Below, one piece after another: positions 1,434-18,460 of a stretch of DNA of 64,000 bases. Where the stretch lies: contig NC_089434.1 in the NCBI RefSeq assembly GCF_026210795.1, forward strand, positions 1,426,001 to 1,490,000, given 5' to 3'. Numbering within the stretch: the first letter of the stretch is position 1; every line of letters starts with the position of its first letter. The DNA comes from Rhizophagus irregularis (Eukaryota > Glomeromycota > Glomeromycetes > Glomerales > Glomeraceae). The translations under genes and the position numbers were made by a program. The notes beneath the pieces were generated by a model. It worked only from the letters and a program-made list of their open reading frames with translations, was not told the DNA's origin and ran no database searches.

Positions 1434-1447
1434 GGAATATTTATTTT

Positions 1448-1758
1448 TTATTCCCAAAACTTGCGGATTAAGGCAGGGACATCCTCCTCCAACCGGTCAG
1501 CGGGTTCCCAAGTGGCTTCGGTATCTGGGTATCGTTCCCACTTGACTAGATACTGGTCTTGACCCTTCCTGATGCGATGCCGGAGTATCCGCTCAGGTAC
1601 AAATCTTTCGGGTTGCCCTCTTATCACGGAGTCAGGTGGGGGATGTTCATTTTCTGGAACAATCTGCAACTCTTTTCGGGTGTACGCACATCTGGATACA
1701 CCTAGACGCCCGTGTGGTCCATCAAGAAGATACGTAGGAGGCTGTTCGGGTGAGAGGA
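1448..1758 (-). pseudogene. Outer-copy integrase, C-terminal chromodomain fragment
   Basis: The minus-strand frame encodes the last about 100 residues of the Maverick integrase, ending in a chromodomain (FVPERILRHRIRKGQDQYLV, then the WERYPDTEATWEP motif). It is cut at 1758 by the left end of the inner Maverick. The rest of the same gene resumes at 16307-17071. Alignment with the intact inner integrase shows that the two halves join exactly once the inner element and one GAGGA copy are removed. Confidence 0.9.
1754..1758. repeat. Left target-site duplication GAGGA of inner Maverick
   Basis: GAGGA directly precedes the element end GTCGTCGGTCTGG and recurs at 16307-16311 directly after the other end. 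The related uninterrupted sequence in the inner integrase gene (about 14540-14555) has a single copy of this region. A 5-bp duplication fits a retroviral-type integrase. Confidence 0.9.
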
Positions 1759-2328
1759 GTCGTCGGTCTGGATGTGGGTCTCGCTACCGCTCACCCCACC
1801 TCGGACTCACGTCCTCGCAGTACCTACTTGGGCCATAATGGCCCTGGAATCTCCCATATATACTACTACCATGGCCACAGTGGCCATGGCTGGTCACACT
1901 ACTTTCCAACTCCTTTTTTTTATCCATTTTTTCTTATATATTAAAACTACTATGACCACTATGACCACTATGACCAGACTACTAAAAAGTGGATAAAAAC
2001 GCGAATAAAGCCAAAATCAGACAGAATATCCGGTCATAGTACTGGCCACAGTTCAAAAAACTTATGATAATACTATGGCCACCTTAGTTAGCCCCTCAGG
2101 CTCCAAAACCCGATTTAAGCTATGACCACCCTTTATCTACTTACCTGAGACACCGAACTATGCCACCGAACTATGACCGCCGAACTATGACCACCGAACT
2201 ATGACCACCGAACTATGACCACCCTTTATCTACATACCTGGGACACCAAACTATGACCGCCGAACTATGACCACCGAACTATGGCCACTTTCCCCGTCAG
2301 AAAAAATAAGTAATTGAACAATGGGTAT
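1759..2328. repeat. Left terminal inverted repeat of inner Maverick
   Basis: The sequence pairs with the reverse complement of 15736-16306, with one mismatch in the terminal 13 bases and about one indel. From the end inward it holds a GC-richer tip (GTCGTCGGTCTGGATGTGGG), two perfect palindromes (1830-1844 and 1869-1889), ACTATGACC-type 12-bp direct repeats near 1950-1980, and a block of CTATGACCACCGAA-type 14-bp repeats at about 2157-2290. The inner edge merges into the promoter of the F-box-like gene. Confidence 0.9.
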
Positions 2329-3017: not shown

Positions 3018-5507
3018 ATGGCCGCTCAAGTTCCAGCAATCTTTAACCCCAACAACCGTTTCTTCTACGATGACCTTCTTAAAAAGTGTATAGGTACACA
3101 CACAAAAGAAAGCATCAATTCAGCAATCTCAGCTTCTGTGGCTTTCATCACCACGAAGTCCGGCATGTGGATCAGAAAAAAGAAGGCTTATAATGGAAGC
3201 ATATACTTCGAGTTTGCTGCAGATCTCAAGGGAATTTCTACTAAGCACAAGGTAAGTATTCGGTCAGATGCAGGAGAAGATGATGGTATGACCACATCCA
3301 TCAAGTTAAAGGACCTTCTTATCCAAGCCTCAGTCACAAAGATCTGTTATACAGATGTAAACTTCATGCCTTATCCCCCAAACGCGCCAAAGTATAATCC
3401 TGAATTCTTCAATCTCTTTCTAGGTTTCAGGGCTCAACCCGCTGAGCACATCAAACCGAACCTAGTTAATCCAATCATTCGACATGTTCATGAGGTATGG
3501 TGTGCAGAGGACAAGCAGTTAACCACGTACATCCTCAACTGGCTTGCATTTCTGGTTCAAAATCCTGACAAAAAACCCGGTACAGCAATTATTATGCGCA
3601 GTCCCCCCAGATGTGGTAAGAATATCTTAACCGATTTTATCGGAGAACGTATTCTCGGCCGTGAAAACTTCCTCTCCACTACGCGTCTTGAAGATGTAAT
3701 GGGAAGGTTCAATGCGGCTGTTCGTGCCAAAAAACTTATCATCCTCAATGAATGTGATATGTCAGGCAAGGAATGGCACGGGGCAAACAACCGACTCAAG
3801 AGTTTAATCACCGAGCCTTACATCTCTATCGAGGAAAAGGGGATAGATGTGAAGGTTATTGATGACTTTGCTGGCTACATGATCCTCAGTAATCATGCTA
3901 TGCCAATCCGTATAGAAATGGGAGATGAAAGATTTGTAGCTCTCAACGTCTCAGCCAAATATAAGGGCAATAGAGAATACTTCGGTTCTCTCGTAAAAGT
4001 ATTAGAAAATCCGGATACAGCCAGTTCCTTCATGTCCTATTTACTTAGCCGAGACTTAACTAGCTTCAATCCCCAATCTATTCCTGATACTCAAATGAAA
4101 CAGGAGCTAATCGAAGCAAGTATTCCAAATCCCCAGCGTTTCATACAATATTACCTTGAAATGATGTGGCCCGACAATTGTGATACACTTGAAATTCCTT
4201 GTACAAATTTCTATAGCACTTACCAGAATTGGTGCAGTGAGAAGGGCGAAAACAAAACACTTAGTGATAATAAGTTTGGTATGGAGATTAAGCAATTTAT
4301 TCCTAAAACTCGCCCAAGACGTTCAGGTGCTAGAATAAACTATTACATACTAGATAAAGCAAAAATTGCGAAGAATTTTAGTAGAGTAATCCAGGAGACA
4401 CAAGACATACAGGAAGCACAGGTAGATCAAGAGGAAGTAGAGCCAGTTGTTGAGAAACCTGCTGAGGAAAAACCCGCTTCTGTCAAGAAGAAGCCTACTG
4501 AAGAAACCAAAAAGACTCCACCACCAGTACCACTTAAGCCCGATTGCTTGAAGGTAAAACCCGCACCTGTCATCAATGAGGATCCTATTCCTGAGGAATC
4601 TCCAGCTCCTATAGAGTCAGATACTGATGAACCTATAGATAGCTTCTCAGACTGTTATCTATCTGATGAGGAACCTGATCAAGAAGATGAGCCGCCTGCT
4701 GAAGAACCTGCACTTAAAGCTGTTGATGACTATGACGTCTTAGATGACTTGCTATCTGACTCAGATTTTACAACTGTGAACCCAGCTCCTGAACAACAAC
4801 CCGAGTCTCCCGCAGAATTTTCTGCATCTGTCACTAAGCCTGACCCAGAACCGGCTCCTGAAGAACAACCCGAGTCTCCCGCAGAATTTTCTGCATCTGT
4901 CACTAAGCCTGACCCAGAACCGGCTCCTAAAGAGCAACCTATCCCAGAACCTGACACAGAACTAGAAGTTGACTGGGACCCTGAACCAAAGGAAGGTACT
5001 CGAGCACACTGGGCTTGGCATGAAAGGCACCGATGGGATCGTAAGCCATGGGTCAAGAATTCAAAGGACCAGGTCTTCAATGATCTCCACAATACAGGTA
5101 AGGATTTATGGGCTAAGTACCAAGACGTGTCAGACAACTATGACTGGGAAATACTCGCGTTTGAAGTAGAGGAATGTCCCACAACACGTATTGAGGACGA
5201 GTACCAGTACTACCTTAGGGAGGTAGTAGACCGCTTCAAGGACTGGATAGAATATAATGGGTACTTACCTAAAACACCTAGCCGTAAAGAACTCGCAGAT
5301 CTAATAAGAGCATATAAGGAGGATCATGATGCCGAGATTATCCCTACCACCTCCGGTTATGAAACTATGAAGATGAATAAGGGTAAGGCACGAGAAATCC
5401 CAGAGGAACGTCCAAAAACTGATATGGAACGTGAATGGGAAGCCGCTAATGGATTTGTAGACGAGCTGGATATTGATGAGGCCTGTGATATGATTGACTC
5501 CTTTTAA
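3018..5507 (+). CDS. Superfamily 3 (D5-like) helicase with long acidic/proline-rich tail
   Basis: The 829-residue product starts at ATG 3018 (MAAQVPAIFNPNN). The SF3 helicase core spans about residues 150-320: Walker A RSPPRCGKN with the lysine near 201, Walker B LIILNECD with the acidic residue near 245, and motif C/sensor MILSN near 288-292, followed by GDERF. This is the class of viral replicative helicase that unwinds DNA ahead of a polymerase, as in NCLDV D5 and virophage helicases. A disordered tail follows, rich in Pro, Glu and Asp, with a perfect 23-residue duplication (69-bp period, 4800-4937, unit containing ESPAEFSASVTKPDPEP), and then a C-terminal region rich in Trp and charged residues. 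I see no clear archaeo-eukaryotic primase motif. It is followed by the polymerase gene on the same strand after 83 bp. Confidence 0.85.
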   Translation: MAAQVPAIFNPNNRFFYDDLLKKCIGTHTKESINSAISASVAFITTKSGMWIRKKKAYNGSIYFEFAADLKGISTKHKVSIRSDAGEDDGMTTSIKLKDLLIQASVTKICYTDVNFMPYPPNAPKYNPEFFNLFLGFRAQPAEHIKPNLVNPIIRHVHEVWCAEDKQLTTYILNWLAFLVQNPDKKPGTAIIMRSPPRCGKNILTDFIGERILGRENFLSTTRLEDVMGRFNAAVRAKKLIILNECDMSGKEWHGANNRLKSLITEPYISIEEKGIDVKVIDDFAGYMILSNHAMPIRIEMGDERFVALNVSAKYKGNREYFGSLVKVLENPDTASSFMSYLLSRDLTSFNPQSIPDTQMKQELIEASIPNPQRFIQYYLEMMWPDNCDTLEIPCTNFYSTYQNWCSEKGENKTLSDNKFGMEIKQFIPKTRPRRSGARINYYILDKAKIAKNFSRVIQETQDIQEAQVDQEEVEPVVEKPAEEKPASVKKKPTEETKKTPPPVPLKPDCLKVKPAPVINEDPIPEESPAPIESDTDEPIDSFSDCYLSDEEPDQEDEPPAEEPALKAVDDYDVLDDLLSDSDFTTVNPAPEQQPESPAEFSASVTKPDPEPAPEEQPESPAEFSASVTKPDPEPAPKEQPIPEPDTELEVDWDPEPKEGTRAHWAWHERHRWDRKPWVKNSKDQVFNDLHNTGKDLWAKYQDVSDNYDWEILAFEVEECPTTRIEDEYQYYLREVVDRFKDWIEYNGYLPKTPSRKELADLIRAYKEDHDAEIIPTTSGYETMKMNKGKAREIPEERPKTDMEREWEAANGFVDELDIDEACDMIDSF

Positions 5508-5590: not shown

Positions 5591-7471
5591 ATGGCCTATT
5601 CAAAAATTGCACGTGCTTTGCCTACAAGACCAGATATCAAAGAACTACAGTATTCAGGCGCAAGATTTTCTAGAGGAGCTATTGCCAGACTTGGACAGCA
5701 ACTCCAATCCCGGTATCCGACACACAAATTTCAGATTCTGCTTCCCTATGAAAACTGGAAACCCGGTGGATGGACATCAGGAAACCAACCAGCCAGCCTC
5801 TTCTCACTCTTGGACCACTACGACGAAGCACAACTACCGGATGATGCAGACCCTGATTATTTTGAACGATTCATAATTTATGTGAGAGATGCCCCACCGG
5901 TTGCAGGGGGTTGCAACGGGGAGCTAAATGATTGCCTGTATGAATGCCTGAAATATATCTACGGCACATTCTCTAAAATGCCAAAGTCAATCAAAAAGCC
6001 CGAGTATATCAAAAAGGCATTAGGTCTCAATCGTGATGCTCCAGTTCCAGTCTCATATATGGATAAGGTTGAACAACTTGCAGGAAGCCTTGCACTTAAT
6101 ATTGTAGGGGATTCCACTCGAATTTCCAAGAGCAAATCTGACAGACGTGCAACACTTATCCTGTCTGAAGGCCACTACTCTCTTGCACTGAATCCCGGAA
6201 GACTCCACCCTAGCAAATTAGATAGAAAACAAAAGTCTCCCTTTGTTTATCGTGAAGATGGGGTTAATAATGTAGTAACAATATACAATGGTAAGACAGT
6301 TAAGTCTCTTACAGTTGGACAGTTTCAGAAAGGTAAGAACTCTGATAGTTACTCCTTCATCCCTATCGAGAAGAATTGTAAAACTGGAATATATGAAACA
6401 CTTGAGGAAACATACCAGAGGATCCATGAAGAGCGGGATTCCTTCCTACAGGCTACAAAGAAGTTCGGTCTAGGAATCGACTTATCTTACCACAACTGGT
6501 CGTACAAGAGAACTGCACTCTGGCTTTTTGAACGGTTTAGTGTAGGGGTTCCAGCCAATGATCCTCTTGACCCAGTCGAAGCAGAGTGGATAAGTGATGC
6601 AATGATGGGAGGTCTTATCTGGGCAGACAATGAATGGAAGGGCTATGGAAGGCAATACGACGTGACAAGTTTGTATCCAAGTATTCAGCAATCAAATGCA
6701 AACTTTCCAATCCGACAAGGTAAGTTTCAAATACTCAAAGACTTTGTAGACCATAGAGGTTATGCCTTGTATGGATTATTTCGTGCTAGCTCCCAGGGAG
6801 CGCCCAAGGGCAAGGTAAGTGGTAATGACATTCTCTTCCGACAGAATAAGAGGGGAGTCTATACATTCATTGACTTACAACGAGCAAAGAAACTTGGACT
6901 CGATATACAGTTAATCCAGGATGGAAAGCCAAATGCCTTGATATATGACAGAGAAGCAAGAATTCCTGGGACTGTAATATTTGGTGAGTATGTCCACTTT
7001 CTCTTCAATATAAAGAACCAGGGTGGCGTGGCCGGTCGTGTTGCAAAGAGAGTTCTCAATACACTATGGGGAGCACTCTGCCAGAGGAAACGCAATTACA
7101 AGACACTCACCACAGATCAAACAGATCCATTCAAGTTTCCAGAAGGCCACACACTTGACTCCATCGTACCAGTAGGATCTGACCAGTGGCGATTCCAGTT
7201 CACAAACCCAGGTAGTCCCTTCAAGGGTGAGTATCCTAGGATCGCTCCATTCTTATTAGCACATGGACGGAAGACGACTTCAGAGTTATTAGAACCATAT
7301 AAGGATAAAGTACGACGCATCCATACAGATGGATTTATTCTAGAGGAACAGCCGAGTAGTCCTACACTTATCACTTGTCCAGAAAATGCATCCAAAGCAT
7401 TGAAAGCTCTCAAGTTTGAAACCGCAGGATACTGCCATGTGAAAAATGCAAACAAGGTTATCTGGACATGA
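5591..7471 (+). CDS. Protein-primed-type family B DNA polymerase with OTU-like N-terminal region
   Basis: The product is 626 residues from ATG 5591. Polymerase motifs are in order: motif A YDVTSLYPS with the Asp near 357; motif B AKRVLNTLWG with Lys near 486 and Asn near 490; and motif C IHTDGF with Thr-Asp near 579-580, where the usual first Asp of DTD is His. It replicates the element's DNA. The N-terminal half lacks recognisable DxE-type exonuclease motifs. Instead it contains NDCLYECLKYIYG (Cys near 115) and, 80 residues later, EGHYSLA (His near 195), the spacing and style of an OTU-family cysteine protease. The OTU call is by pattern only. The length is short for a Maverick polymerase, which often exceeds 1000 residues. 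AATTGAAT lies 21-28 bp upstream of the start. Confidence 0.85.
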   Translation: MAYSKIARALPTRPDIKELQYSGARFSRGAIARLGQQLQSRYPTHKFQILLPYENWKPGGWTSGNQPASLFSLLDHYDEAQLPDDADPDYFERFIIYVRDAPPVAGGCNGELNDCLYECLKYIYGTFSKMPKSIKKPEYIKKALGLNRDAPVPVSYMDKVEQLAGSLALNIVGDSTRISKSKSDRRATLILSEGHYSLALNPGRLHPSKLDRKQKSPFVYREDGVNNVVTIYNGKTVKSLTVGQFQKGKNSDSYSFIPIEKNCKTGIYETLEETYQRIHEERDSFLQATKKFGLGIDLSYHNWSYKRTALWLFERFSVGVPANDPLDPVEAEWISDAMMGGLIWADNEWKGYGRQYDVTSLYPSIQQSNANFPIRQGKFQILKDFVDHRGYALYGLFRASSQGAPKGKVSGNDILFRQNKRGVYTFIDLQRAKKLGLDIQLIQDGKPNALIYDREARIPGTVIFGEYVHFLFNIKNQGGVAGRVAKRVLNTLWGALCQRKRNYKTLTTDQTDPFKFPEGHTLDSIVPVGSDQWRFQFTNPGSPFKGEYPRIAPFLLAHGRKTTSELLEPYKDKVRRIHTDGFILEEQPSSPTLITCPENASKALKALKFETAGYCHVKNANKVIWT

Positions 7472-7584: not shown

Positions 7585-8055
7585 ATGTCAACATATACCG
7601 AATTAGCAAGCATTATTAACAGCACTGACAGCATTAGTGATAAAGTTATTTATGATGCATCACACAATCAGTTCACCATTGTCTCTGATGAAACTGTCCT
7701 CAAGATTATCCGTGCATTGAAAGACACTATAGTAGTCGCATTAGTATCTGGGTTTAGCAAAACCAGCTACCTTGTCCAGGATCATGTGAAGTATATCAAG
7801 AGAATCCAGACAGCAAAGTCTCCTGTATCATATGTGAAGTTCGTGGCCAGAAAACTCTTCCCAGATAATGCAGCATATACTGCTAAGATAGCAAAGATTC
7901 GTGAATCATACAAGAATAAACAAGCTCTTTTAGACAAACTTGAGGCCCTCTTCGAGTTGTATTATAATGTAACTAAGGACTCATTAACAGGTCCCCCAAA
8001 GCGAGCTGTCACTATGAATGAGGCTGAGAAAACCTTAGCAGAACTTCTTGCATAA
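7585..8055 (+). CDS. Maverick protein of unknown function, 156 residues
   Basis: ATG 7585 opens a compact, mostly helical, lysine-rich protein (MSTYTELASIINSTDS at the N-terminus, KTLAELLA at the C-terminus). I recognise no domain. It lies between the polymerase and an F-box gene on the same strand and has its own upstream AATTTGAAGA element, so it is probably a separately transcribed gene of the element. A replication accessory or virion role is possible but not shown. There is no signal peptide or membrane segment. Confidence 0.7.
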   Translation: MSTYTELASIINSTDSISDKVIYDASHNQFTIVSDETVLKIIRALKDTIVVALVSGFSKTSYLVQDHVKYIKRIQTAKSPVSYVKFVARKLFPDNAAYTAKIAKIRESYKNKQALLDKLEALFELYYNVTKDSLTGPPKRAVTMNEAEKTLAELLA

Positions 8056-8112: not shown

Positions 8113-8121
8113 AATTGAAGA
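8113..8121 (+). promoter_or_regulatory. AATTGAAGA element upstream of F-box gene
   Basis: Exact AATTGAAGA, 28-36 bp before ATG 8149. The following TATAAGTAACATAACATCATG resembles the leader of the other F-box-like genes (ATAAGTAACATACAATG). Confidence 0.5.
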
Positions 8122-8148
8122 TGGCTATAGTATAAGTAACATAACATC

Positions 8149-8553
8149 ATGTTAGACCGGTTACCAGTAGAAATAGTCGAACGCATTGTCACAAAAATCC
8201 CGGATACTGACCTTATTGCAGCGAGTAAGGTAGATAGAGTGTGGTGGCAGGAAGTTCGTCGAGAGGCATATAAGAGGTGGAAAAATTATGCCACTACGAT
8301 CAGGGATGTGTACTGTGAAATCCGAGCTCTCGGAAAGCATTATATAAAGAGGGAAATTGACTGGATAACGTTTGAAGATGTAAACGACCTCTATAAAAGA
8401 TGGATAAACTGCCTTACCGAGGATCAGCTTTATATTATGGAAAAAATGCTTAGGAATGGGATGGTCGTGGACCCCCAAGAGAGGGAAACCATAGAGTATG
8501 CATTAAGTGAACAAAGATGGGGAGGCGATCCTTGGGGACTGGGAGTGGTATGA
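8149..8553 (+). CDS. F-box protein encoded by inner Maverick
   Basis: The product is 134 residues. Residues 1-45 read LPVEIVERIVTKIP followed by DTDLIAASKVDRVW and a Trp/Lys helix, a clear F-box: the conserved Leu-Pro start, hydrophobic helices and the final Trp. F-box proteins recruit targets to Skp1-cullin ubiquitin ligases. The remaining 90 residues form a charged helical region with no recognised substrate-binding repeats. Together with the paralogous family at 2346, 17446, 25360 and 27086 it means this Maverick lineage carries at least two different F-box-like genes. Several large DNA viruses use F-box proteins to redirect host degradation; a similar role here is inference. Confidence 0.75.
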   Translation: MLDRLPVEIVERIVTKIPDTDLIAASKVDRVWWQEVRREAYKRWKNYATTIRDVYCEIRALGKHYIKREIDWITFEDVNDLYKRWINCLTEDQLYIMEKMLRNGMVVDPQERETIEYALSEQRWGGDPWGLGVV

Positions 8554-8576
8554 ATGGACTAACAGGAGTAGCTTAT

Positions 8577-8790: not shown

Positions 8791-8792
8791 GT

Positions 8793-8802
8793 AAATTGAA
8801 GA
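8793..8802 (+). promoter_or_regulatory. AAATTGAAGA element upstream of 193-residue gene
   Basis: AAATTGAAGA lies 38-47 bp before ATG 8840, at the end of the 62-bp tandem repeats. It agrees with the element before several other genes of this Maverick. Confidence 0.45.
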
Positions 8803-8839
8803 AAACTATTAGGTATGTAGACACGTACAGAAAAAAGAC

Positions 8840-9421
8840 ATGTCTTACCCTTATATAGCTAACCCTATAACTGGACGTCCAATTATTATCGGTGGAGATA
8901 CCTTTAATCGAATAGTTATGGAATCCCATGATTATATTGATGGAAGGCTTGTCCGTAGACAAACTGCACCTCCACCTGAAGAGCAACCTGTATATTTAAA
9001 TACAGATACAGGACGTTATGTTCGACGTGGTACTAGAACATATTATAGACTGATTGAGAGTGACTATGAGGTAGTTGAGGATTACTACCTTGTCCATTAT
9101 GAAGAAGAGGCGCTTATAGAGGAAATCATCAATGAAACACGCTATAATGAGGAAAATCTTGATGGGCAGCGGTTAACTTTCAATGATATACAACAAATCA
9201 GGACTGCTATTCAGGCTGACCAAGATGAATATGATGATTTTATCTTACAGCAAGATACGACTAACGGAACACTTTCCTCCGGTCCTTCCGGTCGTCCACG
9301 AACTTTGGAAGACCATACCCCGAGACTTGCAGAGCTTAATATTGAGTTGTGTAGGGAATGTCTCATGCCTGTAAGCCCAAGTGACTTAACGGACAAGTTG
9401 TGCAAGGACTGCTCCGAATAG
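8840..9421 (+). CDS. Maverick protein of unknown function with C-terminal Cys-rich knuckle
   Basis: The product is 193 residues from ATG 8840. The N-terminal part is Tyr- and Arg-rich (SYPYIANPITGRPIIIGGDT), the middle is acidic and helical, and the C-terminus has two Cys pairs, CRECLMP and CKDCSE, spaced as in a small zinc ribbon. I do not recognise the family. The start is supported by the upstream AAATTGAAGA element and by colinearity with neighbours. It could be a regulatory or structural protein. Confidence 0.7.
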   Translation: MSYPYIANPITGRPIIIGGDTFNRIVMESHDYIDGRLVRRQTAPPPEEQPVYLNTDTGRYVRRGTRTYYRLIESDYEVVEDYYLVHYEEEALIEEIINETRYNEENLDGQRLTFNDIQQIRTAIQADQDEYDDFILQQDTTNGTLSSGPSGRPRTLEDHTPRLAELNIELCRECLMPVSPSDLTDKLCKDCSE

Positions 9422-9466
9422 TTACTTAATTTTGAATAATTCTTTTTTACATAAAGAAAGATAGCC

Positions 9467-10027
9467 ATGTCAACATCAATCGTAATAAACCAATGCCAAA
9501 ACTGTGGAGTAATCACTCCAAAAACAGCATATAGAGGATTATCCAGCGTGTTGTATAGACAGATTATAAAGAAGATTGGTGACGAGAGTGAACCTTTACA
9601 AGCCTTGGGACTTGCTAGGGATAAGTTAGTTCAGATCATTCGTCGGGGAAGTAATGTGGACTTTACACAATTGTTTACACAAAAACTGGATATGAATATT
9701 ATGGATGGAGAGCCATATGAAGATATTAGGAAGTGGCTTCTCGAACAGCTTATAGCCATAGGTTATGACAGTGGAGAAATTGCTTTATATCAATTTCTAA
9801 GGGATACATATCCAGATGGTATTGACGAGCCTTTCACTACATTCTATGAGAACTATGTAAATCATATAAGTAATCCAATGACTAAGAACTTTGCTTCTCG
9901 TGCTTTAGGAGCAATAGGGTTGAAGGCTAAGATGTTAAGGATTGACTTTGAAGGCCGTAAAAAAAGTGCTATGATTCTTAAAGCTTCTGCAGACGAATTA
10001 CTTGATATTCTCACAAGATACTATTAA
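9467..10027 (+). CDS. Maverick protein of unknown function, 186 residues
   Basis: ATG 9467 opens a protein with an early CQNCG pair and a largely helical remainder (RQIIKKIGDESEPLQALGLA). No family is recognised. It lies 45 bp after the preceding gene and its end overlaps the end of the convergent ATPase gene by 17 bp (10011-10027), so transcripts from the two strands share their 3' ends. In Polintons and Polinton-like viruses the neighbours of the ATPase are often virion genes, but the size and sequence here give no support for a jelly-roll capsid. Confidence 0.65.
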   Translation: MSTSIVINQCQNCGVITPKTAYRGLSSVLYRQIIKKIGDESEPLQALGLARDKLVQIIRRGSNVDFTQLFTQKLDMNIMDGEPYEDIRKWLLEQLIAIGYDSGEIALYQFLRDTYPDGIDEPFTTFYENYVNHISNPMTKNFASRALGAIGLKAKMLRIDFEGRKKSAMILKASADELLDILTRYY

Positions 10028-11235
10028 TTCCTACTTGTAATGCTCGACGGTCCATGTGGCTCTTAGAAAAGATCTGTAGAAGGACTTCAATACCTTCTAT
10101 TATTTGTTTATTATCCAGAGGGCGACTAGACTTCAGGGCTTCATATCGGGAGAATAACTCCTTCACATTCTCAGTTTTCAGAGTTTCAGTCTTTGCAGTC
10201 TTACCCTGTACTTTTGCTAAGAAATCCTGAAAGTCAGCTCCTAGGGTCTTACCAGAGAGTCCATAAGCTTCCCGAAAGACATATTTAATCCAGGTATCTG
10301 CATTCTTGGCTAAGACACCAGGTACAAGTAAATGTTGACGTTCTTTAGGGGATGGAAATACCCGAGCAAATTCAATCAAGTGTCCACCTTTTTTTGCTTC
10401 AAATACAGCTTTCTGACCATAGGGACTAAACTTGGATCGAACTGTGATTGAACTGGGTTCAGACTGAGATCGAACTGGGTTCAAACTTGGATCAAACTGA
10501 GATTGAACTGAGATCGAACTAGGATTGAACTGAGATTGCTCTGTGATCGAACTGAGACTAGTATCCCATCTTACTCGAATGGACAGTGGATCACTTTTGG
10601 ACCGTCTAAGATCAAACACTACAAATTCACGTTGCAGAGTAAGATCATCAATTACTGGTGCTAATGACTCTGATTCTTCTGTATATAGGCGGATGATTCT
10701 CTTGGTATCTGTAAGGCTCCCATGACCTCCATGCAGTGAGATGTAGTTAACATTTTCTCGAATAGCCTTAGGAATGGCAAAGAATCTTTGGGCTACATAA
10801 ATACATGAAATATTTTTGTGTCGTCCATGTGTAAAGTAACCAGTGATGAGATCCTGGATTTTTTTAGGTGCATCCATCAGATCCTCGAAGATTACCACAG
10901 TAGCTTGAGTAGGGTCGAAGGAATCAATCTCTGGAATCTCACTATGGGTTACTGCAGTGAATGGGATCTTCTCCTCTTCGAAAAAAATCATGTACAACTG
11001 CCCACTTTGGCTCGTCAAGATATCTGCCAACTAAAAGTACTGCATCACATAGTACATACCGATTACCATCCTCCTTTGCTTTCTTGTCACCCATTAACAA
11101 ATTAATGATCATAGTTGTCTTACCTGAGTCTGAGCTACCTGCTACGGCTAATCGAAAGGGCCATGATGGAGCAAACTCATTGCCTTGTCTTGAGTCGGTC
11201 GTGTACTCGTCCAAATTGTATACATAAAGATCCAT
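10011..11235 (-). CDS. A32/HerA-FtsK-like DNA-packaging ATPase, split by a T7 frameshift
   Basis: ATG 11235 (MDLYVYNLDEY) leads to Walker A GSSDSGKT with the lysine near 39. After VVHDFF the frame must change by one base at a run of seven T (plus-strand A run 10981-10987) to continue as EEEKIPFTAVTHSEIPEID, Walker B VVIFEDLMD and the sensor-like ISCIYVAQRF. Genome-packaging ATPases of the A32 type couple ATP hydrolysis to DNA filling of virions. The second frame ends at 10011. A Ser/Pro/Gln-rich insertion with degenerate repeats near 10435-10560 precedes the C-terminal helical region. The frame change may be an indel, a homopolymer error or +1 frameshifting; the rest of both frames looks intact. 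Confidence 0.75.
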
Positions 11236-11266
11236 TTGAATTTTATTCTAACTTAGTTTAAATACT

Positions 11267-12064
11267 ATGTCGACATCAACACCAATTCCAGTTTATACTC
11301 CTTCAGAACCTACTGGACCGCCTCCTGCACACTTGGTCAATGAAAAAGACGATGATGAATTAGTTAGAATACTTAAGGCTCATGCAAATTTATTGACTAC
11401 CAGGGGTCGTTTAACTGTTGATTCAGAGATACAGGAGGCAAATAATCAAATCAAACATATTATTAATATATTAATGTATCGCTGTAAAGCAAAACATGAA
11501 GAACTTGGTATTACAAAAGATTTGTTAGTTTTTGCACAAGGTAAGATAAATGCATTTGATGAAACGTTTACTAATTTAGAACGTCAATTAGTTATTATAC
11601 GTGCTGCCAATGATAATTTCATAGAAGAAAACCATAACCTGCAAAGAGATTATGATACTATGGTAGAGCTTCGTCGACGGGCTATAGGTGAACGTAATCA
11701 GGCACGACATGAACGTAATGTATTACAAGCAGATTATACTCAAGCAGTAAGGGATCGTAATGAGGCTCAAAATGCTGTGAATCGTGGTAATATCCTTTTA
11801 AATCATTGGCGGCTGAGGGCTACTCGGACTGGAGGACAACTTGTATTGGTTAATGCGCAACTTGGACAGGTTAATGCACAGCTAGCACATGCTAATAATA
11901 GGGTGCGTTTTGGGATTCAGACATTAGGAAGACTTAGGAATAGACTTTTCCAACAGATAGCTGCTCTTAGAATTCAGGTACAATGGTTTCGAATTAGACA
12001 ATTGAACCCTCCTCCACCTATATTAAACAATCCACTAGAGACGATATGGCTACCACTGCGATAG
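11267..12064 (+). CDS. Coiled-coil protein upstream of Gag
   Basis: The product is 265 residues from ATG 11267. A Pro/Thr-rich N-terminus (STPIPVYTPSEPTGPPPAHL) is followed by long Glu/Arg/Asn-rich heptad-like stretches from about residue 35 to 230, as in a coiled coil. The last 19 nt overlap the start of gag at 12046 in another frame, an unusually tight arrangement for a eukaryotic locus. The start diverges from the ATPase start across only 31 bp. I do not recognise a family. Position suggests a scaffold or partner for the Gag protein (inference). Confidence 0.65.
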   Translation: MSTSTPIPVYTPSEPTGPPPAHLVNEKDDDELVRILKAHANLLTTRGRLTVDSEIQEANNQIKHIINILMYRCKAKHEELGITKDLLVFAQGKINAFDETFTNLERQLVIIRAANDNFIEENHNLQRDYDTMVELRRRAIGERNQARHERNVLQADYTQAVRDRNEAQNAVNRGNILLNHWRLRATRTGGQLVLVNAQLGQVNAQLAHANNRVRFGIQTLGRLRNRLFQQIAALRIQVQWFRIRQLNPPPPILNNPLETIWLPLR

Positions 12065-13476
12065 GATTGCCGATTTTTGAGGGTAAAGCTACTGATGATA
12101 TTGATACATTTGTTAGGCTTTATATGGGTTATCTTGATACTATTAATCTTAACCCATACGCTGCTGGAGGGCCACCAGAGTCTTGGAAAAGAGCTATGGG
12201 TATACTTAGAAGCTGCATGGCTGGTGAAGCGGCTGAATGGTTTGATCGAGAAATTACAGGAAAAAATTGGGAACTTTCTGGTATCACTTCAAGAGGTGGA
12301 GCTAATTTAGCTGCTTTTGTAGCATTAGTAATACCAGAAGGTGCAGGAGGACCAAATGCAGGTACCTATGTAAATGGGTCTGAAGCACATGTTCATGCTA
12401 CAGATGCAGCTAATGCATTAGTAACTATTAGAGCAGCATTTATTCCTACCCATGATTTAATAGGTGGAGATAAAGCTTGGGGAAGAGCTGGTGCTCGTCC
12501 GACAGATAGAGCTGCTCCAGCTACTGCAGATGCTGGTGTTGCTGCTAATAATAATCGTTCTATAGTTTTTCCAGGTATTAAACCTAACCAGGCGCTTTAT
12601 TGGCTTAGAACACAATTTCCAACTATTTTAGATGAAAAGAAACGTATCCGTTTTAACAGTCTTTATCAGGAAAATGAGCCAGTCGATGCATTTTATAGAA
12701 CTGTAAAGAGAGCTGGAAAATTACTAAAACTAACTGATGATCTTATTATCGACCAGTTCTTTAGAGGTCTTTCGGCTGATAATATTTTTGAAGCAGAAAG
12801 GTTTAGTAATCTTAATCCTGATGACTTGGTTAAACATCTGAGAAATTTAGAACGGAGAAGGGCTGAAATGCGCTTGGGGTTACAAGATAGAAATCGACGA
12901 CTTCAAGCAGATTACAGTGATGTAACTCAACCTCCGTTAGGAAAACAGGAACCTGTAGTACTGACATCAAAGTCATCTGGGGTTACTCAAGAACAATTAC
13001 AAGAGTTACTTAAGGCTCAAGCTGAGGAACTTACCAAGAATTTTCAGGTGCAATTTAAACAATTACAGGCTCGGCCAGTTCGTAATCCACCAGTCTATAG
13101 ACAGCAGATTAAACCTGTTCGACCAAAACCACAGAGACGTGTTGTTCAGGATCCTCAGGATCCTGATTGGGATGATGGTTATGTAGATCATGATGTTGGT
13201 GATGACCCTGATGCTCCTGAGTGGACTTTGGATGATCATCAAAATGCTATTGATCTTATTATGGGATATAAACGTGGGACGTCTAAAATACTTACAAAAC
13301 AACTTCAGAAGGCTAAAGATAGACGTGATGATCTGGATTTGGCCCGAGCAATGAGAAACCTTGATCTTAATGATGATGCTATGGACATTGATACTGCGAG
13401 TTTTGGTGAAAAGGTAGAATTGAGAGAAAAAGATGGTGATGTCTATATGGTTCGTGTTGGGTCAAAAAAAAAGTAG
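12046..13476 (+). CDS. Retrotransposon (Ty3/gypsy-type) Gag protein in a Maverick
   Basis: The product is 476 residues from ATG 12046. The N-terminus reads LPIFEGKATDDIDTFVRLYM, then WKRAMGILRSCMAGEAAEWF, the hallmark of the retrotransposon Gag capsid N-terminal domain. Residues about 190-290 (ALYWLRTQFPTILDEKKRIR, FNSLYQENEPVDAFYRTVKR, DQFFRGLSADNI) fit the Gag capsid C-terminal half. The last third is a Gln/Pro/Asp-rich linker with RPKPQRRVVQDPQ and an acidic segment. No CCHC zinc knuckle is visible. It is conserved in the outer copy. Gag forms capsid-like shells, so here it may replace the usual double jelly-roll capsid (inference). The stop at 13474 overlaps the protease frame. Confidence 0.85.
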   Translation: MATTAIGLPIFEGKATDDIDTFVRLYMGYLDTINLNPYAAGGPPESWKRAMGILRSCMAGEAAEWFDREITGKNWELSGITSRGGANLAAFVALVIPEGAGGPNAGTYVNGSEAHVHATDAANALVTIRAAFIPTHDLIGGDKAWGRAGARPTDRAAPATADAGVAANNNRSIVFPGIKPNQALYWLRTQFPTILDEKKRIRFNSLYQENEPVDAFYRTVKRAGKLLKLTDDLIIDQFFRGLSADNIFEAERFSNLNPDDLVKHLRNLERRRAEMRLGLQDRNRRLQADYSDVTQPPLGKQEPVVLTSKSSGVTQEQLQELLKAQAEELTKNFQVQFKQLQARPVRNPPVYRQQIKPVRPKPQRRVVQDPQDPDWDDGYVDHDVGDDPDAPEWTLDDHQNAIDLIMGYKRGTSKILTKQLQKAKDRRDDLDLARAMRNLDLNDDAMDIDTASFGEKVELREKDGDVYMVRVGSKKK

Positions 13477-14213
13477 GTTCGAGTATCTCAAAACTTCTTA
13501 AGTCGTCCCCAAATAAGACAGCAGTTAGCTCTTCTAGTGTGCCATTGAAAGGCAAAGCAACCCCTATTAAGATTCCTATGAAAGTTACTGGTAGTAAGTC
13601 TACACCTGCAAAAGCTGTTACTAAGAATGATTTATTAAGCCTGTTAAGGTCTGCAGACTTTAGGAAATTACTCCGTGAGATTCTTCAGGAGGAGTTATTG
13701 TCTGCTAGAAAAGTCACAGAGATTCCGGAGGACCTAGTTGAGGAGGAACAAGAAGAGGATATCAGGGTAGATGATTCTATGGATATTGACATAGCTCGTT
13801 TAGAGAATACTAAAGATCTTTTAGCACTGGATGGGGAGGTTAATGGAATAGCAATTCAGTGTTTAGCAGACACTTGTGCTAATGCGTCTTTTATTCAGAG
13901 AGAAGCTGCTGAGGAATTAGGGTTGGATATCGACAAGAGTATTACATATAACATATCTGGTGCTTCAGGAACAGGTAGGACATTCGGCATGGTAAAGGGA
14001 GTGACAATCAAACTTACCCCTGATTATGCTATCACTGAGGACCTTGCAGTCTTAAGTGGTTACAAGCATAGGGAAATTGGGTTAAGCCGAACGTGTCTGA
14101 AACGTTACAATTATGATGTCCATGAATCACGCGAACATATCGCCCTTACCTGTAATGGGAAGAATGTTTTTATCCCGATAGTTCCTGATGCTAATCGAGG
14201 GGATAAAAAATAA
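13461..14213 (+). CDS. Retropepsin-like aspartic protease in Maverick
   Basis: About 250 residues if entered by frameshifting at the A run; GTG 13539 is the first alternative start and no suitable ATG lies before the conserved core. An acidic N-terminal helix (residues IPEDLVEEEQEEDIRVDD) leads to the core LLALDGEVNGIAIQCLADTC and ANASFI, the position of the catalytic DTG/DSG loop, here DTC in both copies. A Gly/Ser flap-like segment (NISGASGTGRTF) and EIGLSRTCLKRYN, the counterpart of the hydrophobic-hydrophobic-Gly motif, follow. It presumably processes Gag. Loss of the motif glycine leaves catalytic competence open. The integrase is convergent, 25 bp downstream. Confidence 0.75.
   Translation, partial: VKKKVGSSISKLLKSSPNKTAVSSSSVPLKGKATPIKIPMKVTGSKSTPAKAVTKNDLLSLLRSADFRKLLREILQEELLSARKVTEIPEDLVEEEQEEDIRVDDSMDIDIARLENTKDLLALDGEVNGIAIQCLADTCANASFIQREAAEELGLDIDKSITYNISGASGTGRTFGMVKGVTIKLTPDYAITEDLAVLSGYKHREIGLSRTCLKRYNYDVHESREHIALTCNGKNVFIPIVPDANRGDKK
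13462..13476 (+). promoter_or_regulatory. Candidate -1 ribosomal frameshift site at the gag-pro junction
   Basis: Gag ends TCA AAA AAA AAG TAG. A -1 slip on the run of nine A would continue as AAA AAA GTA GGT in the protease frame, which is open from 13461 without its own ATG near the start. The arrangement is like retroviral gag-pro recoding. I did not find a decisive downstream pseudoknot by eye. The outer copy has eight A at the same place. Confidence 0.6.
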
Positions 14214-14238
14214 GACCCTTTAATTCTTCTATTTTTTT

Positions 14239-15330
14239 TTATTCCCAAAATTTGCGAATTAAGTCAGGGACATCCTCCTTCAACCGGTCAGCAGGTTCCC
14301 AAGTAGCCTCAGTGTCTGGATAGCGCTCCCACTTAACCAAATACTGGTCTTGACCTTTTCTAATGCGATGCTGAAGTATCTGCTCAGGAACAAATCTTTC
14401 AGGTTGTCCTCTTATCACAGAGTCAGGTGGAGGCTTTTCATTAATAGGAACTACTTGCAATTCCTTTCGGGTATATGCACATCTGGATACACCTAATCGA
14501 CCATGTGGTCCATTAAGGAGATATGTAGGAGGCTGTTCGGGTGAGAGTATCATTTTTTTGATTACACGAATGTTTGGGTTCCATCTTATGTCTCCTGTAC
14601 GGAATTTTCCGTGAAGTTTATTACCGAGTACTGAGATAGGTTCATTTAACTTGACTCTGACACGTGCTCCTTCAGAGAGGAGATCCGTCTTTTTTGACAC
14701 TTTGGGTGATCCTGTCGGAATGTCTGGGGGATTTCTCTGCCAGAGTTCATTTACTTTACTCACTATATTATGGAAATCTTCTGACCATTCCACGGATGTC
14801 ACCCCGGTTTTCAACTCCTGTGCTACCATTCGTTTAAGAAGGGGTTCTTGGATGGCTTGGATAGCTCTTTCAGCATAAGATTGCTGTTTATGCCTTCCTG
14901 GCTCTCCGAACCTCATCATTACCCCTAGGCTGTTCAGGAAAAAATCACGTACCTGGTCGTTAGTGAATTCTGATCCGGAGTCTGTCTCCAGTCTGTGTGT
15001 TGGTGGCTTAATACGATTTCTTCTGTAGATTTTGACAAACCCGTTTAGAACTCTATTTGCAGTCTTATCCTTTAGGGGTTCTGCATCAACTCTCTTTCCT
15101 GCAACTTCCACCACTACGAGAAAATAGTGGAATCCTTTGGGGTCAACTGGCATCTCTGCAAGATCTGCCTGATGTGTTGCATTTGGTTTCCATACAATTA
15201 CCTTTGGGCGTTCTGTTGACTTTTCCTTTAGGGGCTTTTTGTATAGGTTGTAGTGCTCTTCACCTTTTAGAATTCGTGCTGGTACTCCGGAGAGATTGTA
15301 GTACTTATAGTAATTCTCTAAGTGTGACAT
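14239..15330 (-). CDS. Maverick integrase: DDE core plus C-terminal chromodomain
   Basis: The start is ATG 15330 (MSHLENYYKYYN), giving 363 residues. The retroviral-type catalytic core has Asp near 56 (HQADLAEM), Asp near 117 (LETDSGSEF) and Glu near 154 (QQSYAERA), a DD36E spacing by my count. A basic SH3-like region follows (GNKLHGKFRTGDIRW), then a chromodomain at about residues 310-360 (QYLVKWERYPDTEATWEP). It cuts and joins element ends to host DNA, and the 5-bp duplications at 1754/16307 and 24867/27910 fit this enzyme class. The chromodomain may guide insertion to modified chromatin. The gene is divergent from the DUF5679-like gene, with only 44 bp between starts. Confidence 0.92.
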   Translation of the reverse strand: MSHLENYYKYYNLSGVPARILKGEEHYNLYKKPLKEKSTERPKVIVWKPNATHQADLAEMPVDPKGFHYFLVVVEVAGKRVDAEPLKDKTANRVLNGFVKIYRRNRIKPPTHRLETDSGSEFTNDQVRDFFLNSLGVMMRFGEPGRHKQQSYAERAIQAIQEPLLKRMVAQELKTGVTSVEWSEDFHNIVSKVNELWQRNPPDIPTGSPKVSKKTDLLSEGARVRVKLNEPISVLGNKLHGKFRTGDIRWNPNIRVIKKMILSPEQPPTYLLNGPHGRLGVSRCAYTRKELQVVPINEKPPPDSVIRGQPERFVPEQILQHRIRKGQDQYLVKWERYPDTEATWEPADRLKEDVPDLIRKFWE

Positions 15331-15374
15331 ATTACAACAAATTAAAGGAATGGTTTTAGACTTCAAATCTTAAA

Positions 15375-15767
15375 ATGACACGTTTTTACTGCCTAAAGTG
15401 CAAGAAGGAAACTGAGACGGCTAGTGAAATACAAGATATGACTACAAATGGGCGTTACCGGCTGCATGGTGACTGTGTGGTTTGTAGTATGCATAAAAAT
15501 ACTTTTACTGGAATAGACTGGGTGATCAAGAAGAAGACTAAGGAGAAAAAGAAAGAAACCGCTGCTAAGAGACAGCAGACGGCTTACAATCGGCAGTGCA
15601 AAAAACTTGGACAGAAAATCTTAGATTCTGATGACGCGTGTAAACAGTGTATTGATAAATGCCTTAAGGAGGCAAAAAAAGAGGAAGACGGATTAGTACT
15701 GTCTTCTAAACTTATCTGGATATGCTCTATTCTCAATACCCATTGTTCAATTACTTATTTTTTCTGA
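15375..15767 (+). CDS. DUF5679-like zinc-ribbon protein, C-terminus altered by one A
   Basis: ATG 15375 gives FYCLKCKKETE, GDCVVCSMHKN and a Lys-rich segment with a further CKQC pair. The N-terminal 45 residues match the pattern of DUF5679-type small zinc proteins of large DNA viruses (YC.KC.....G..CP.C). The outer homologue ends in KEAKKRKTD. Here seven A rather than six after GAGGC shift the frame, so the ORF reads on for about 30 unrelated residues into the terminal repeat. The Lys-rich tail could bind nucleic acid (inference). Confidence 0.65.
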   Translation: MTRFYCLKCKKETETASEIQDMTTNGRYRLHGDCVVCSMHKNTFTGIDWVIKKKTKEKKKETAAKRQQTAYNRQCKKLGQKILDSDDACKQCIDKCLKEAKKEEDGLVLSSKLIWICSILNTHCSITYFF

Positions 15768-16306
15768 CGGGGAAAGTGGCCGTAGTTCGGTGGTCGTAGT
15801 TCGGCGGTCATAGTTTGGTGTCCCAGGTATGTAGATAAAGGGTGGTCATAGTTCGGTGGTCGTAGTTCGGTGGTCGTAGTTCGGCGGTCATAGTTCGGTG
15901 GCATAGTTCGGTGTCTCAGGTAAGTAGATAAAGGGTGGTCATAGCTTAAATCGGGTTTTGGAGCCTGAGGGGCTAACTAAGGTGGCCATAGTATTATCAT
16001 AAGTTTTTTTGAACTGTGGCCAGTACTATGACCGGATATTCTGTCTGATTTTGGCTTTATTCGCGTTTTTATCCACTTTTTAGTAGTCTGGTCATAGTGG
16101 TCATAGTGGTCATAGTAGTTTTAATATATAAGAAAAAATGGATAAAAAAAAGGAGTTGGAAAGTAGTGTGACCAGCCATGGCCACTGTGGCCATGGTAGT
16201 AGTATATATGGGGGATTCCAGGGCCATTATGGCCCAAGTAGGTACTGCGAGGACGTGAGTCCGAGGTGGGGTGAGCGGTAGCGAGACCCACATCCAGACC
16301 GATGAC
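15736..16306. repeat. Right terminal inverted repeat of inner Maverick
   Basis: Inverted partner of 1759-2328. The 3' end of the DUF5679-like ORF runs about 30 bp into it. The tip reads CCAGACCGATGAC at 16294-16306. The segment CCTCGCAGTACCTAC is also present in the outer element and in the small element at 24872-27909, so it may be part of the integrase recognition region (inference). Confidence 0.9.
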
Positions 16307-16311
16307 GAGGA
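16307..16311. repeat. Right target-site duplication GAGGA of inner Maverick
   Basis: This is the second copy of the 5-bp duplication at 1754-1758, immediately outside the right terminal repeat. The outer integrase frame continues from here. Confidence 0.9.
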
Positions 16312-17071
16312 TCATTTTTTTGATGACACAGATATTGGGATTCCATCTTATGTCACCTGTACGAAATTTTCCATGGAGTTTATTCCCGAGTACTGAAATA
16401 GGTTCGTCTAATTCAGAGAGAAGTTCCGTCTTTTTTGACACTTTGGGTGACCCTGTCGGAATGTCTGGGGGATTTCTCTGCCAGATTTCATCTATTTTAT
16501 TAACTACATCACGGAAATCTTCTGACCATTCCACGGATGTCACCCCGGTCTTCAACTCCTGTGCCACCATTCGTTTTAGGAGAGGTTCCTGGATTGCTTG
16601 GATGGCTCGTTCAGCGTATGATTGCTGTTTGTGTCTTCCTGGTTCGCCGAACCTCATCATCACCCCTAGGCTGTTCAGGAAAAAATCACGTACCTGATCA
16701 TTGGTGAATTCTGATCCGGAGTCTGTCTCTATTCGATGTGTTGGTGGCTTAATGCGATTTCTTCTGTAGATTTTAACAAATCCATTGAGAACCTTATTTG
16801 CGGTTTTATCCTTTAGGGGTTCTGCATCGACTTGTTTACCCGCGACTTCCACCACTACGAGGAAATAGTGGAATCCTTTGGGGTCGACTGGCATCTCTGC
16901 AAGATCTGCCTGATGTGTTGCATTTGGTTTCCATACAACTACTCGTGGACGCTCTGATGACTTCTCCTTTAGGGGCTTTTTATATAGGTTGTAGTGCTCC
17001 TCACCTTTTAGAATTCGTGCCGGTACTCTGGAGAGATTGTAGTATTTGTAGTAATTCTCTAAATGCGACAT
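16307..17071 (-). pseudogene. Outer-copy integrase, N-terminal part, disrupted by inner Maverick
   Basis: ATG 17071 (MSHLENYYKYYNLSRVPARI) gives the same DDE core as the inner integrase, with ADLAEM, ETDSGSEF and SYAERA all retained. Compared with the inner protein it lacks about nine residues around the GARVRVKLN segment. The frame then reaches the KKMIL segment and is cut by the inner element at 16306; the C-terminal chromodomain is at 1448-1758. Reading through the boundary gives meaningless residues from the terminal repeat. Confidence 0.9.
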
Positions 17072-17115
17072 ATTACGACAAATTAAAGGAAAGATTTCGG
17101 ACTTCAAATCTTAAG

Positions 17116-17436
17116 ATGACACGATTTTACTGCCTAAAGTGTAAGAAGGAAACTGAGACTGCTAGTGAAATACAAGATATGACCACAAATGGCCGCTATC
17201 GTTTACATGGTGACTGTGTAGTTTGTGGGATGCATAAGAATACTTTTACTGGGATAGACTGGGTTATCAAAAAGAAAACCAAGGAGAAGAAAAAAGAAAC
17301 TGCGGATAAAAGACATCAGACGGCGTACAATCGGCAATGCAAAAAACTCGGGCAGAAAATCTTAGATTCTGATGACACGTGTAAGCAGTGTATTGATAAA
17401 TGCCTTAAGGAGGCAAAAAAGAGGAAGACGGATTAG
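17116..17436 (+). CDS. DUF5679-like zinc-ribbon protein, outer Maverick
   Basis: The product is 106 residues from ATG 17116 and ends in KEAKKRKTD, with Cys pairs CLKC, CVVC and CKQC and a Lys-rich middle (KKKTKEKKKETADKR). It is close to the copy at 15375, with many silent differences. Starts of this gene and the divergent integrase are 44 bp apart, as in the inner copy, so they probably share a bidirectional promoter. The function of DUF5679 is unknown; zinc binding is inferred from the cysteines. Confidence 0.7.
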   Translation: MTRFYCLKCKKETETASEIQDMTTNGRYRLHGDCVVCGMHKNTFTGIDWVIKKKTKEKKKETADKRHQTAYNRQCKKLGQKILDSDDTCKQCIDKCLKEAKKRKTD

Positions 17437-17445
17437 TACCGCCTT

Positions 17446-17961
17446 CTAAAAGTATTCCTCATCATCTGAGTCATCGAGAGATACCTCTCCATCATCTGAT
17501 TCATCATCCGAGTCATCAGGAGTGCGACCTTCCTTAAGCAATTGGATGTTGTACGTTATTTGAGTCCATTTCTCCCAGTCAGACTCTTGCGTTATAAAGC
17601 CGCATCTGAGGAGTGCTCTTTCTATTACTACCATCCCTGCAAACCTGGTGTATTTTTTCTGATCGGCTTCATTGAAATTGTCAATGGCTTCTTTGTAGTA
17701 GTCTACTGCCTGTTTGTATACCTCTTCGGCTTCTTTATGCCGCTTCCACAACTCGGCTTTACAACAGTTATACCAGAGTCTGTTAATCTTGAGATGTTTT
17801 CCGAATTCTTTAACCGGAAGGTTTCTGACCATCTCTGCTACTATGTCCGGGTCATTGAGGGGTGATGCCTGAATTTGGATCCATTTACGGATTCCATAGA
17901 TGTCTACAAGATCAAGCCCGAGGTCTTCGGTAAGAGAAGTGGCGGCGTGTAAGTTTATCAT
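17446..17961 (-). CDS. F-box-like protein, intact copy of outer Maverick
   Basis: The product is 171 residues from ATG 17961 (MINLHAATSLTEDLGLDLVD). Residues about 35-75 (LNDPDIVAEMVRNLPVKEF, then INRLWYNCCKAELWKRHK) have the Leu-Pro start, hydrophobic spacing and final LWK of an F-box. A helical middle and a strongly acidic Asp/Ser-rich tail (DDSDDESDDGEV) follow. This is the full-length reference for the frameshifted copy at 2346 and the truncated copies at 25360 and 27086. It is tail-to-tail with the DUF5679-like gene, 9 bp apart. The F-box call is by pattern and not certain. Confidence 0.65.
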   Translation of the reverse strand: MINLHAATSLTEDLGLDLVDIYGIRKWIQIQASPLNDPDIVAEMVRNLPVKEFGKHLKINRLWYNCCKAELWKRHKEAEEVYKQAVDYYKEAIDNFNEADQKKYTRFAGMVVIERALLRCGFITQESDWEKWTQITYNIQLLKEGRTPDDSDDESDDGEVSLDDSDDEEYF

Positions 17962-17985
17962 TGTATGTTACTTATAGTTACCTAA

Positions 17986-17994
17986 TCTTCAATT
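17986..17994 (-). promoter_or_regulatory. AATTGAAGA element upstream of F-box-like gene (minus strand)
   Basis: On the minus strand AATTGAAGA lies 25-33 bp before ATG 17961, in the longer context CAATTGAAGATTAGGTAACT that is shared exactly with 25326-25345 and its mirror copy and with 2966-2985. Confidence 0.5.
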
Positions 17995-18460
17995 GCCGAA
18001 TATATTTTTTCTGACGGGGGTAAGTGGTCATAGTTCGGCTGCCATAGTTCGAGTGCCATAGTTCAGGACATAGGGAATCATACTTGGAGGGTCTAGGTGA
18101 GTATATAAAGGGTAATCATAGCGTGAATCGGGTTTTGGGGTCTGAGGGGCTGACTAAGGCTGCCATAGTATTATTATAAGATTTTTCGTACTATGGCAGA
18201 TACTATGGCAGGAGATTCTGTTTGATTTCGGCTTTATTCGCGTTTTTATTCCATTTTTAAGTAGTTTGCCATAGTTGCCATAGTTGTCATAGTAAGTTAT
18301 ATATAAGAAAAAATGTAGAAAAAAAAAAAGTGGAAAAATACCGTGGCAGACCATGGTACTGTGGCAGGTAAACCTGCCCCACGGAGGGGGGATGTAGGTA
18401 CTGCGAGGCCGTGGCCGAGGTGGGATGAGCGCTAGCGAGGCACACTACCAGCCCGACGAC
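17995..18460. repeat. Right terminal region of outer Maverick
   Basis: This non-coding end has CATAGTTCG-type direct repeats near 18025-18065, a TATATAAGAAAAAATG segment and the tip CTACCAGCCCGACGAC. The tip and the neighbouring CCTCGCAGTACCTAC block (reverse strand) match the ends of the element at 24872-27909 better than those of the inner Maverick, so two subfamilies are present. The left partner is outside the window. The host flank after the tip begins ACAAA. Confidence 0.8.

Follow-up and report, generated by a model that had tools for sequence, protein, structure and literature searches.

Polintons (Mavericks) are widely held to be ancestral to many eukaryotic DNA viruses, and it has been left open whether those of fungi are capsid-less transposons. 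A locus of the fungus Rhizophagus irregularis raises the question of what could enclose the DNA of such an element when none of its genes is a recognisable Maverick capsid gene. The window, that is, the whole stretch of 64,000 nucleotides (nt) analysed here, comprises positions 1426001-1490000 of contig NC_089434.1 (C6 in our numbering) of assembly GCF_026210795.1, and the genome searched consisted of 146.7 Mb in 32 contigs. A repeat search delimited a Maverick-like element of 14,548 base pairs (bp) at 1759-16306, with inverted repeats of 570/571 bp at both ends. An earlier note on this DNA had placed a family-B DNA polymerase, an SF3 helicase, an A32-like ATPase, a chromodomain integrase, a Gag and an aspartic protease together in this element. 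All of them were confirmed, the ATPase in frameshifted form, and it is well supported that the gene content is chimaeric and conserved. We favour, with some reserve, the reading that this is a Polinton/Maverick-like element with a retroelement virion module in place of the jelly-roll capsid and adenovirus-type protease, packaging in a Gag shell included. The principal features are as follows (aa, amino acids).

1759..2328, plus strand: left terminal inverted repeat, 570 bp, about 99% identical to the right repeat
3018..5507, plus strand: D5-like (SF3-type) helicase, 829 aa (Pfam DUF5906 2.9e-19, Pox_D5 2e-7; PHROGs phage primase families)
5591..7471, plus strand: family-B DNA polymerase (PolB), short, 626 aa (Pfam DNA_pol_B_2 1.7e-7; palm motifs present)
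10011..11235, minus strand: A32-like packaging ATPase, split by a frameshift into pieces 10942-11235 and 10011-10991 (Pfam)
12046..13476, plus strand: Gag, 476 aa, with capsid N- and C-domains in the structure model
13464..13473, plus strand: A9G tract directly 5' of the gag stop codon (13474-13476), across which the protease frame stays open in -1
13539..14213, plus strand: retropepsin-type aspartic protease, first ATG at 13578
14239..15330, minus strand: retroviral-type integrase with chromodomain, 363 aa (Pfam rve 5.1e-9, Chromo 3.1e-17; motifs)
15736..16306, minus strand: right terminal inverted repeat, 571 bp

The element thus shows the terminal inverted repeats, the rve integrase and the A32-type packaging ATPase of Polintons/Mavericks, and its polymerase is identified as family B by the Pfam match to DNA_pol_B_2. 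The ATPase is a single frame in sister copies, where it matches Pox_A32 at 1.1e-10. A 5-bp target duplication, GAGGA, lies on either side of the element (1754-1758 and 16307-16311). The three other elements with both ends located have ACAGC, ATTAA and TTACC, so that the duplication is 5 bp in 4 of 4 and not the 6 bp of the vertebrate type. The element sits inside the integrase gene of an older, outer element, whose right end is of the subfamily-2 type; an uninterrupted relative of the outer integrase gene is found at 14525-14570.

1..1758, plus strand: left portion of the outer element, subfamily 2 (3' part of gag; protease 663-1433; 3' end of the integrase from 1441, minus strand)
16307..18460, minus strand: right portion of the outer element (rest of the integrase, to 17107; DUF5679 protein; 171-aa open reading frame; right end at 18460)

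The structure model of Gag, which is of moderate confidence, was predicted to be mostly helical, and its best structural matches in Foldseek searches and in the VIA list were retroviral-type capsids. The absence of a family from the VIA list does not exclude that family, and 2 of the 50 Foldseek matches listed were unrelated helical proteins. Within the confidence of this model, the element has a Gag with a capsid fold as LTR (long terminal repeat) retrotransposons do. Among the best 120 of 189 protein matches, Gag relatives of up to 98% identity belonged to Rhizophagus irregularis DAOM 181602=DAOM 197198, and further relatives were found at 41-74% identity and in R. diaphanus (P0041) at 75%. 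The metagenome protein P0064 has a tail almost identical to that of the window Gag and an unlike capsid part. When IMG/VR was scanned with alignments of Gag, PolB and A32, no relative was confirmed.

Could a jelly-roll capsid be present in addition? The claim that no frame has the size of a double jelly-roll capsid was borne out. There is no room for such a gene because no unassigned gap exceeds 689 bp, with a coding share of 90% between the repeats, and scans of the open reading frames (ORFs) with Pfam, and of 10 proteins with PHROGs, gave no double jelly-roll or other capsid family. The Pfam scans of the ORFs likewise returned no adenovirus-type protease, in line with the earlier note, the retropepsin being found in its stead, and recognised no envelope or penton gene. 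A genome search with PF21738 (double jelly-roll) was empty and is uninformative, as its control was silent too. The remaining genes of the element are the following.

7585..8055, plus strand: 156-aa conserved protein (p156; ORF list, sister copies), with a ratio of nonsynonymous to synonymous substitution (dN/dS) of 0.16 between subfamilies
8149..8553, plus strand: 134-aa F-box-like protein, weak (Pfam F-box E 0.011, below cut-off)
8840..9421, plus strand: 193-aa protein (p193) with a weak 2-cysteine-adaptor-like motif (2C_adapt 0.0017, below cut-off) and two C-terminal CxxC
9467..10027, plus strand: 186-aa conserved protein (p186; ORF list, sister copies)
11267..12064, plus strand: 265-aa coiled-coil-looking protein (p265), overlapping the gag start by 19 nt (weak SMC-type match, E 0.0012)
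15375..15767, plus strand: zinc-ribbon-like (DUF5679) protein, 130 aa (Pfam 1.4e-17)

The earlier note had held that a jelly-roll fold in the small proteins would speak against it. For p156, p186 and p193 neither PDB nor Pfam gave a sequence match, to a single jelly-roll penton or otherwise; a small jelly-roll penton or minor capsid protein among these three is possible. A broader alternative is that a divergent jelly-roll capsid does exist, either encoded by a small ORF or provided in trans by a giant virus or some other element, Gag being an addition. The capsid protein of the Trichomonas Maverick was recognised late, in a conserved hypothetical protein, in a survey described as leaving fungi outside (PMC10120064), which calls for caution with any claim of capsid absence. 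A giant-virus-like polymerase has been reported from R. irregularis (PMC5294986), and the small ORFs were judged by the searches just mentioned. We nevertheless regard this alternative as improbable: neither a gap nor an unassigned ORF of double jelly-roll size is available, and the Gag model is mostly helical. On the same model, Gag as a misread double jelly-roll protein was rejected.

Elements lacking a recognised major capsid protein (MCP) have precedents. Some protist Polintons are described as likewise without a recognised double jelly-roll MCP, and for Polintons of Glomus intraradices the Discussion of the same paper states that no MCP was detectable, none having been found as of 2021 (PMC7805220). 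Nine MCP-less Polintons of a published set are reported to lack the ATPase and the protease as well (PMC4028283). Unlike in those nine, as there described, the ATPase frame is kept here in sister copies.

At the junction of gag and protease, the 3' end of gag reads TCA AAA AAA AAG TAG, and the -1 frame through this tract is the protease frame, so that the retropepsin is joined to gag by a frame overlap as in LTR retrotransposons. Slippage into -1 is known to occur at A AAA AAG and at A AAA AAA. The A9G tract is the sole plus-strand A-run of at least 8 between the repeats of the inner element. Over 21 distinct loci the tract was A9G in 15, A8G in 4 and A7G in 2, and the gag frame itself is shifted in the A8 and A7 copies. 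In 18 of the 21 the protease frame was open from the tract to the active-site motif; the exceptions were two decayed copies (L036 and L038) and an interrupted one (L032), and in L013 the frame was open with an altered motif. Two copies, one of them an A7 copy (L011), have gag and protease fused as one frame of 737 aa. The layout of tract and -1 protease resembles that of retroelements and, as read from the frames, is new here; slippage of RNA polymerase at the tract is an alternative to ribosomal -1 frameshifting.

To what extent the module resides in the element family was examined across the genome. With 89 of 334 candidates scored, the Gag search gave at least 91 matches, of which 55 have identities of 83-100%, 34 identities of 49-57% and the remaining two 63 and 73%; protease matches numbered at least 154. 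The PolB search (70 of 262 candidates scored) gave at least 71 matches. Among the matches listed, 56 of the 91 Gag matches had a PolB match no more than 25 kb upstream on their own strand. Conversely, a Gag match lay within 25 kb downstream of 53 of the 71 PolB matches and a protease match for 11 more, so that 64 of 71 had one or the other, and the absence of gag-pro from related Mavericks, by which the earlier note could have failed, was not what we saw. In L042, one of the 18 PolB loci without a paired Gag match, Gag is broken. Ten sets were selected by their Gag, and they show gene order, not frequency. The order p193, p186, A32, p265, gag, pro, integrase, zinc ribbon was kept in these ten with two exceptions: in C15_4013 the genes from p186 to p265 are missing, and in C11_694 gag and pro are separated by an insert. 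The examined stretch took in helicase and PolB in 6 of the 10.

Between subfamilies (window versus L023/L024; for PolB, versus L029), dN/dS was 0.065 for the integrase, 0.073 for PolB, 0.086 for p186, 0.114 for the protease and 0.119 for A32, and higher for p156 (0.159), p193 (0.216), gag (0.40) and the F-box gene (0.53). The values for protease and gag indicate purifying selection. The gag-pro-integrase module is also present in the outer copy, and the proteases of the inner and outer elements gave a dN/dS of 0.103 (core 0.069), in agreement with the proposal that the module is stable and selected. Residues 1-300 of Gag had a dN of 0.52 and a dS of 1.5, and the Gag tail 0.19 and 0.43. That dN of 0.52 was the highest, all eight other measured genes lying at 0.03-0.08, and p265 diverges along with gag, with an identity of only about 40-49% between subfamilies. 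Judged from these comparisons, the divergence of Gag 1-300 and p265 reflects either rapid change or the swapping of a capsid cassette; P0064, which resembles the window Gag closely in its tail and not in its capsid part, fits the latter. Residence of the gag-pro module in the element family, under selection, is well supported.

These results bear on the possibility that gag-pro is the remnant of an LTR retrotransposon inserted in the element, since both Gag and protease belong to the LTR-element type. The scanned ORFs contained neither a reverse transcriptase nor an RNase H, the end repeats are inverted and not direct, and no direct-repeat pair surrounds gag-pro among the 20 largest of 43 repeat families. 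Moreover, gag-pro occurs in both subfamilies, Gag in relatives at 41-53% identity, and the module is under purifying selection. We rejected this explanation, which is very improbable.

A second gag-pro-like module was found at two loci. The protease matches of the genome search included some of 28-32% identity, L041 among them. At L041, a coiled-coil and Gag-like frame of 803 aa ends in A9G with the protease (29% identical to that of the window) in -1, and an integrase adjoins (C8:3488398). At L043, the order is integrase, coiled-coil/Gag-like protein of 695 aa with a weak CCHC motif (E 0.02), A10C, and retropepsin in -1 with Asp-Thr-Gly; the protease is 23% and the integrase 28% identical to those of the window. 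The two Gag-like proteins share 33% identity. L043, found separately, lies 3' of L003, at a distance of 1.1 kb; L003 is a large polymerase frame that differs from the window PolB, gave DNA_pol_B_2 at 1.8e-11 in the genome search and has a visible YMDTDS motif. In 7 of 31 large-PolB matches the spacing from PolB to integrase is 4939-4951 bp. Since gag-pro occupies this interval at L043, the one of the seven whose sequence was read, the module is probably constant among them. The spread of this second module is judged from integrase and protease matches and spacing. We put forward only tentatively, as somewhat less than an even chance, that at least two Maverick families of this fungus with unlike polymerases have abandoned the double jelly-roll virion for a Gag shell around a genome copied by a DNA polymerase, with loading by an A32-like ATPase and maturation by a retropepsin made by frameshifting, a kind of virus combining a varidnavirus replicon with a retrovirus capsid.

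How would such an element work? Homology suggests that its own family-B polymerase and SF3-type helicase copy it as DNA and that the chromodomain integrase inserts it. Gag would be the main product, and slippage at A9G before the gag stop would yield a minor Gag-Pro fusion, as the conserved frame layout suggests. Gag would form a shell, the retropepsin would mature it, and the A32-like ATPase would load the DNA genome into it. We infer that the conserved slip site, the retropepsin and the packaging-type ATPase, taken together, are best read as pointing to a Gag shell around a DNA genome.

Several observations weigh against this reading. Each Gag match is weak singly (Pfam E 0.03, PDB E 0.11, Foldseek E 0.033), neither PHROGs (10 element proteins) nor NCBIfam matched a capsid or a Gag, and a motif scan of the window Gag found no CCHC zinc knuckle. 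The active-site triplet of the window retropepsin is Asp-Thr-Cys, not Asp-Thr/Ser-Gly. RNA folding 3' of the tract was no better than in shuffles (z 0.38, 0.89, 0.13), and the ATPase of the window copy itself is broken by the frameshift. Seven of the 71 PolB loci had neither a Gag nor a protease match within 25 kb among the matches listed. As to the second module, the Pfam scan of L003 returned Endonuclease_7 alone, and the window Gag had no profile similarity to the L041 and L043 proteins (hhalign probability 1.2), which leaves a common origin of the modules without support.

The element could instead be a pure transposon, with Gag-Pro serving some other intracellular step such as chromatin tethering, traffic of replicated DNA or interference with retrotransposons. 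The chromodomain integrase and the high copy number suit such a life, as does the lack of a recognised envelope or penton gene among the scanned ORFs, and MCP-less Polintons have prompted the idea of capsid loss for transposon life (PMC7805220, as far as its Discussion goes). Against it, the A32-like ATPase is under purifying selection (dN/dS 0.12), and a maturing shell is favoured because the -1 layout would set the ratio of Gag to Gag-Pro, together with a retropepsin. We therefore hold the pure transposon to be unlikely, about one chance in four, and continue with the Gag shell.

Other genes of the family also vary. The N-terminal part of the helicase is of a differing type in some copies (42% identity in L031; 46% in L029 and 55% in L039 over longer spans), and the C-terminal parts of the L031 helicase are 96% and 83% identical to the window type (3018-5507). 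By these identities, the N-terminal part appears to be a second exchanged cassette. The subfamily-2 element L029 has an additional 173-aa ORF between PolB and p156 (L029:4301-4822) that is absent from the ORF list of the window element. The N-terminal Cys/His motifs of PolB are reminiscent of an OTU domain, a motif reading only; the PolB profile had no PDB match, and its AlphaFold2 (AF2) model had a pLDDT of 29. A vOTU domain has been described for protein-primed polymerases, with terminal protein (TP), vOTU and palm plus a superfamily 3 helicase (S3H) for mavirus (PMC11071308). A third PolB group has an integrase 585-586 bp away (C7:3330135, C11:1426171, C16:3598756, C3:4732837, C16:2680907).

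Directly after the end of the outer element begins a pair of inverted arms, 18461-23222 and 31391-36152, each of 4762 nt, 100% complementary and 8168 nt apart; the pair arose by a large and recent inverted duplication or is an artefact of the assembly. Inside this pair lie perfect inverted arms of 935 nt (24871-25805 and 26976-27910), which overlap a stretch 94% similar to the region of the 171-aa ORF. Both larger arms contain a tandem array of about 173-185-bp units (18708-19679 and 34934-35905). Further on, the window contains a Helitron at 41466-45569, with a single frame of 1367 aa carrying Helitron_like_N and PIF1 helicase domains, and a tandem array of 87- and 104-bp units in mixed order at 48210-51948.

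Compared with known systems, the element is like animal Polintons/Mavericks in its family-B polymerase, retroviral-type integrase, packaging-type ATPase, long inverted repeats and size of 14-15 kb. It is unlike them in its Gag and retropepsin, no double jelly-roll capsid or adenovirus-type protease being found, and in its 5-bp duplication and ends of GTC[G/A]TC, vertebrate Mavericks being described with 6-bp duplications and AG/AGT ends (PMC8097293). With mavirus-like virophages, in their published descriptions, it shares a short polymerase without a recognised exonuclease, a separate SF3-type helicase and an rve integrase, and it differs from them in that no jelly-roll capsid was found. With Ty3/Gypsy elements and retroviruses it shares the predicted capsid-like fold of Gag, a retropepsin, a -1 overlap at an A-rich tract and an rve integrase with chromodomain. 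Unlike Ty3/Gypsy, it has the integrase on the opposite strand and a DNA polymerase and helicase, and no reverse transcriptase, RNase H or LTR was found. Among the matches listed in a literature search, to which subscription journals were mostly outside, Gag or retropepsin was unreported as a Polinton/Maverick part.

The closest comparison is with the MCP-less Polintons of Glomus intraradices (= R. irregularis), which come from the same host species; the Discussion of PMC7805220 does not mention a Gag-Pro module in them. Mavericks are reported among the recent expansions in R. irregularis (PMC8647823). Likened by description and not by sequence, the window element is very probably of the same kind. 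The shell gene of this fungus's Polintons may have escaped detection because Gag-Pro replaces it. If so, Gag-Pro would answer the capsid question for the Glomus intraradices Polintons, and shells would be exchangeable between virus realms.

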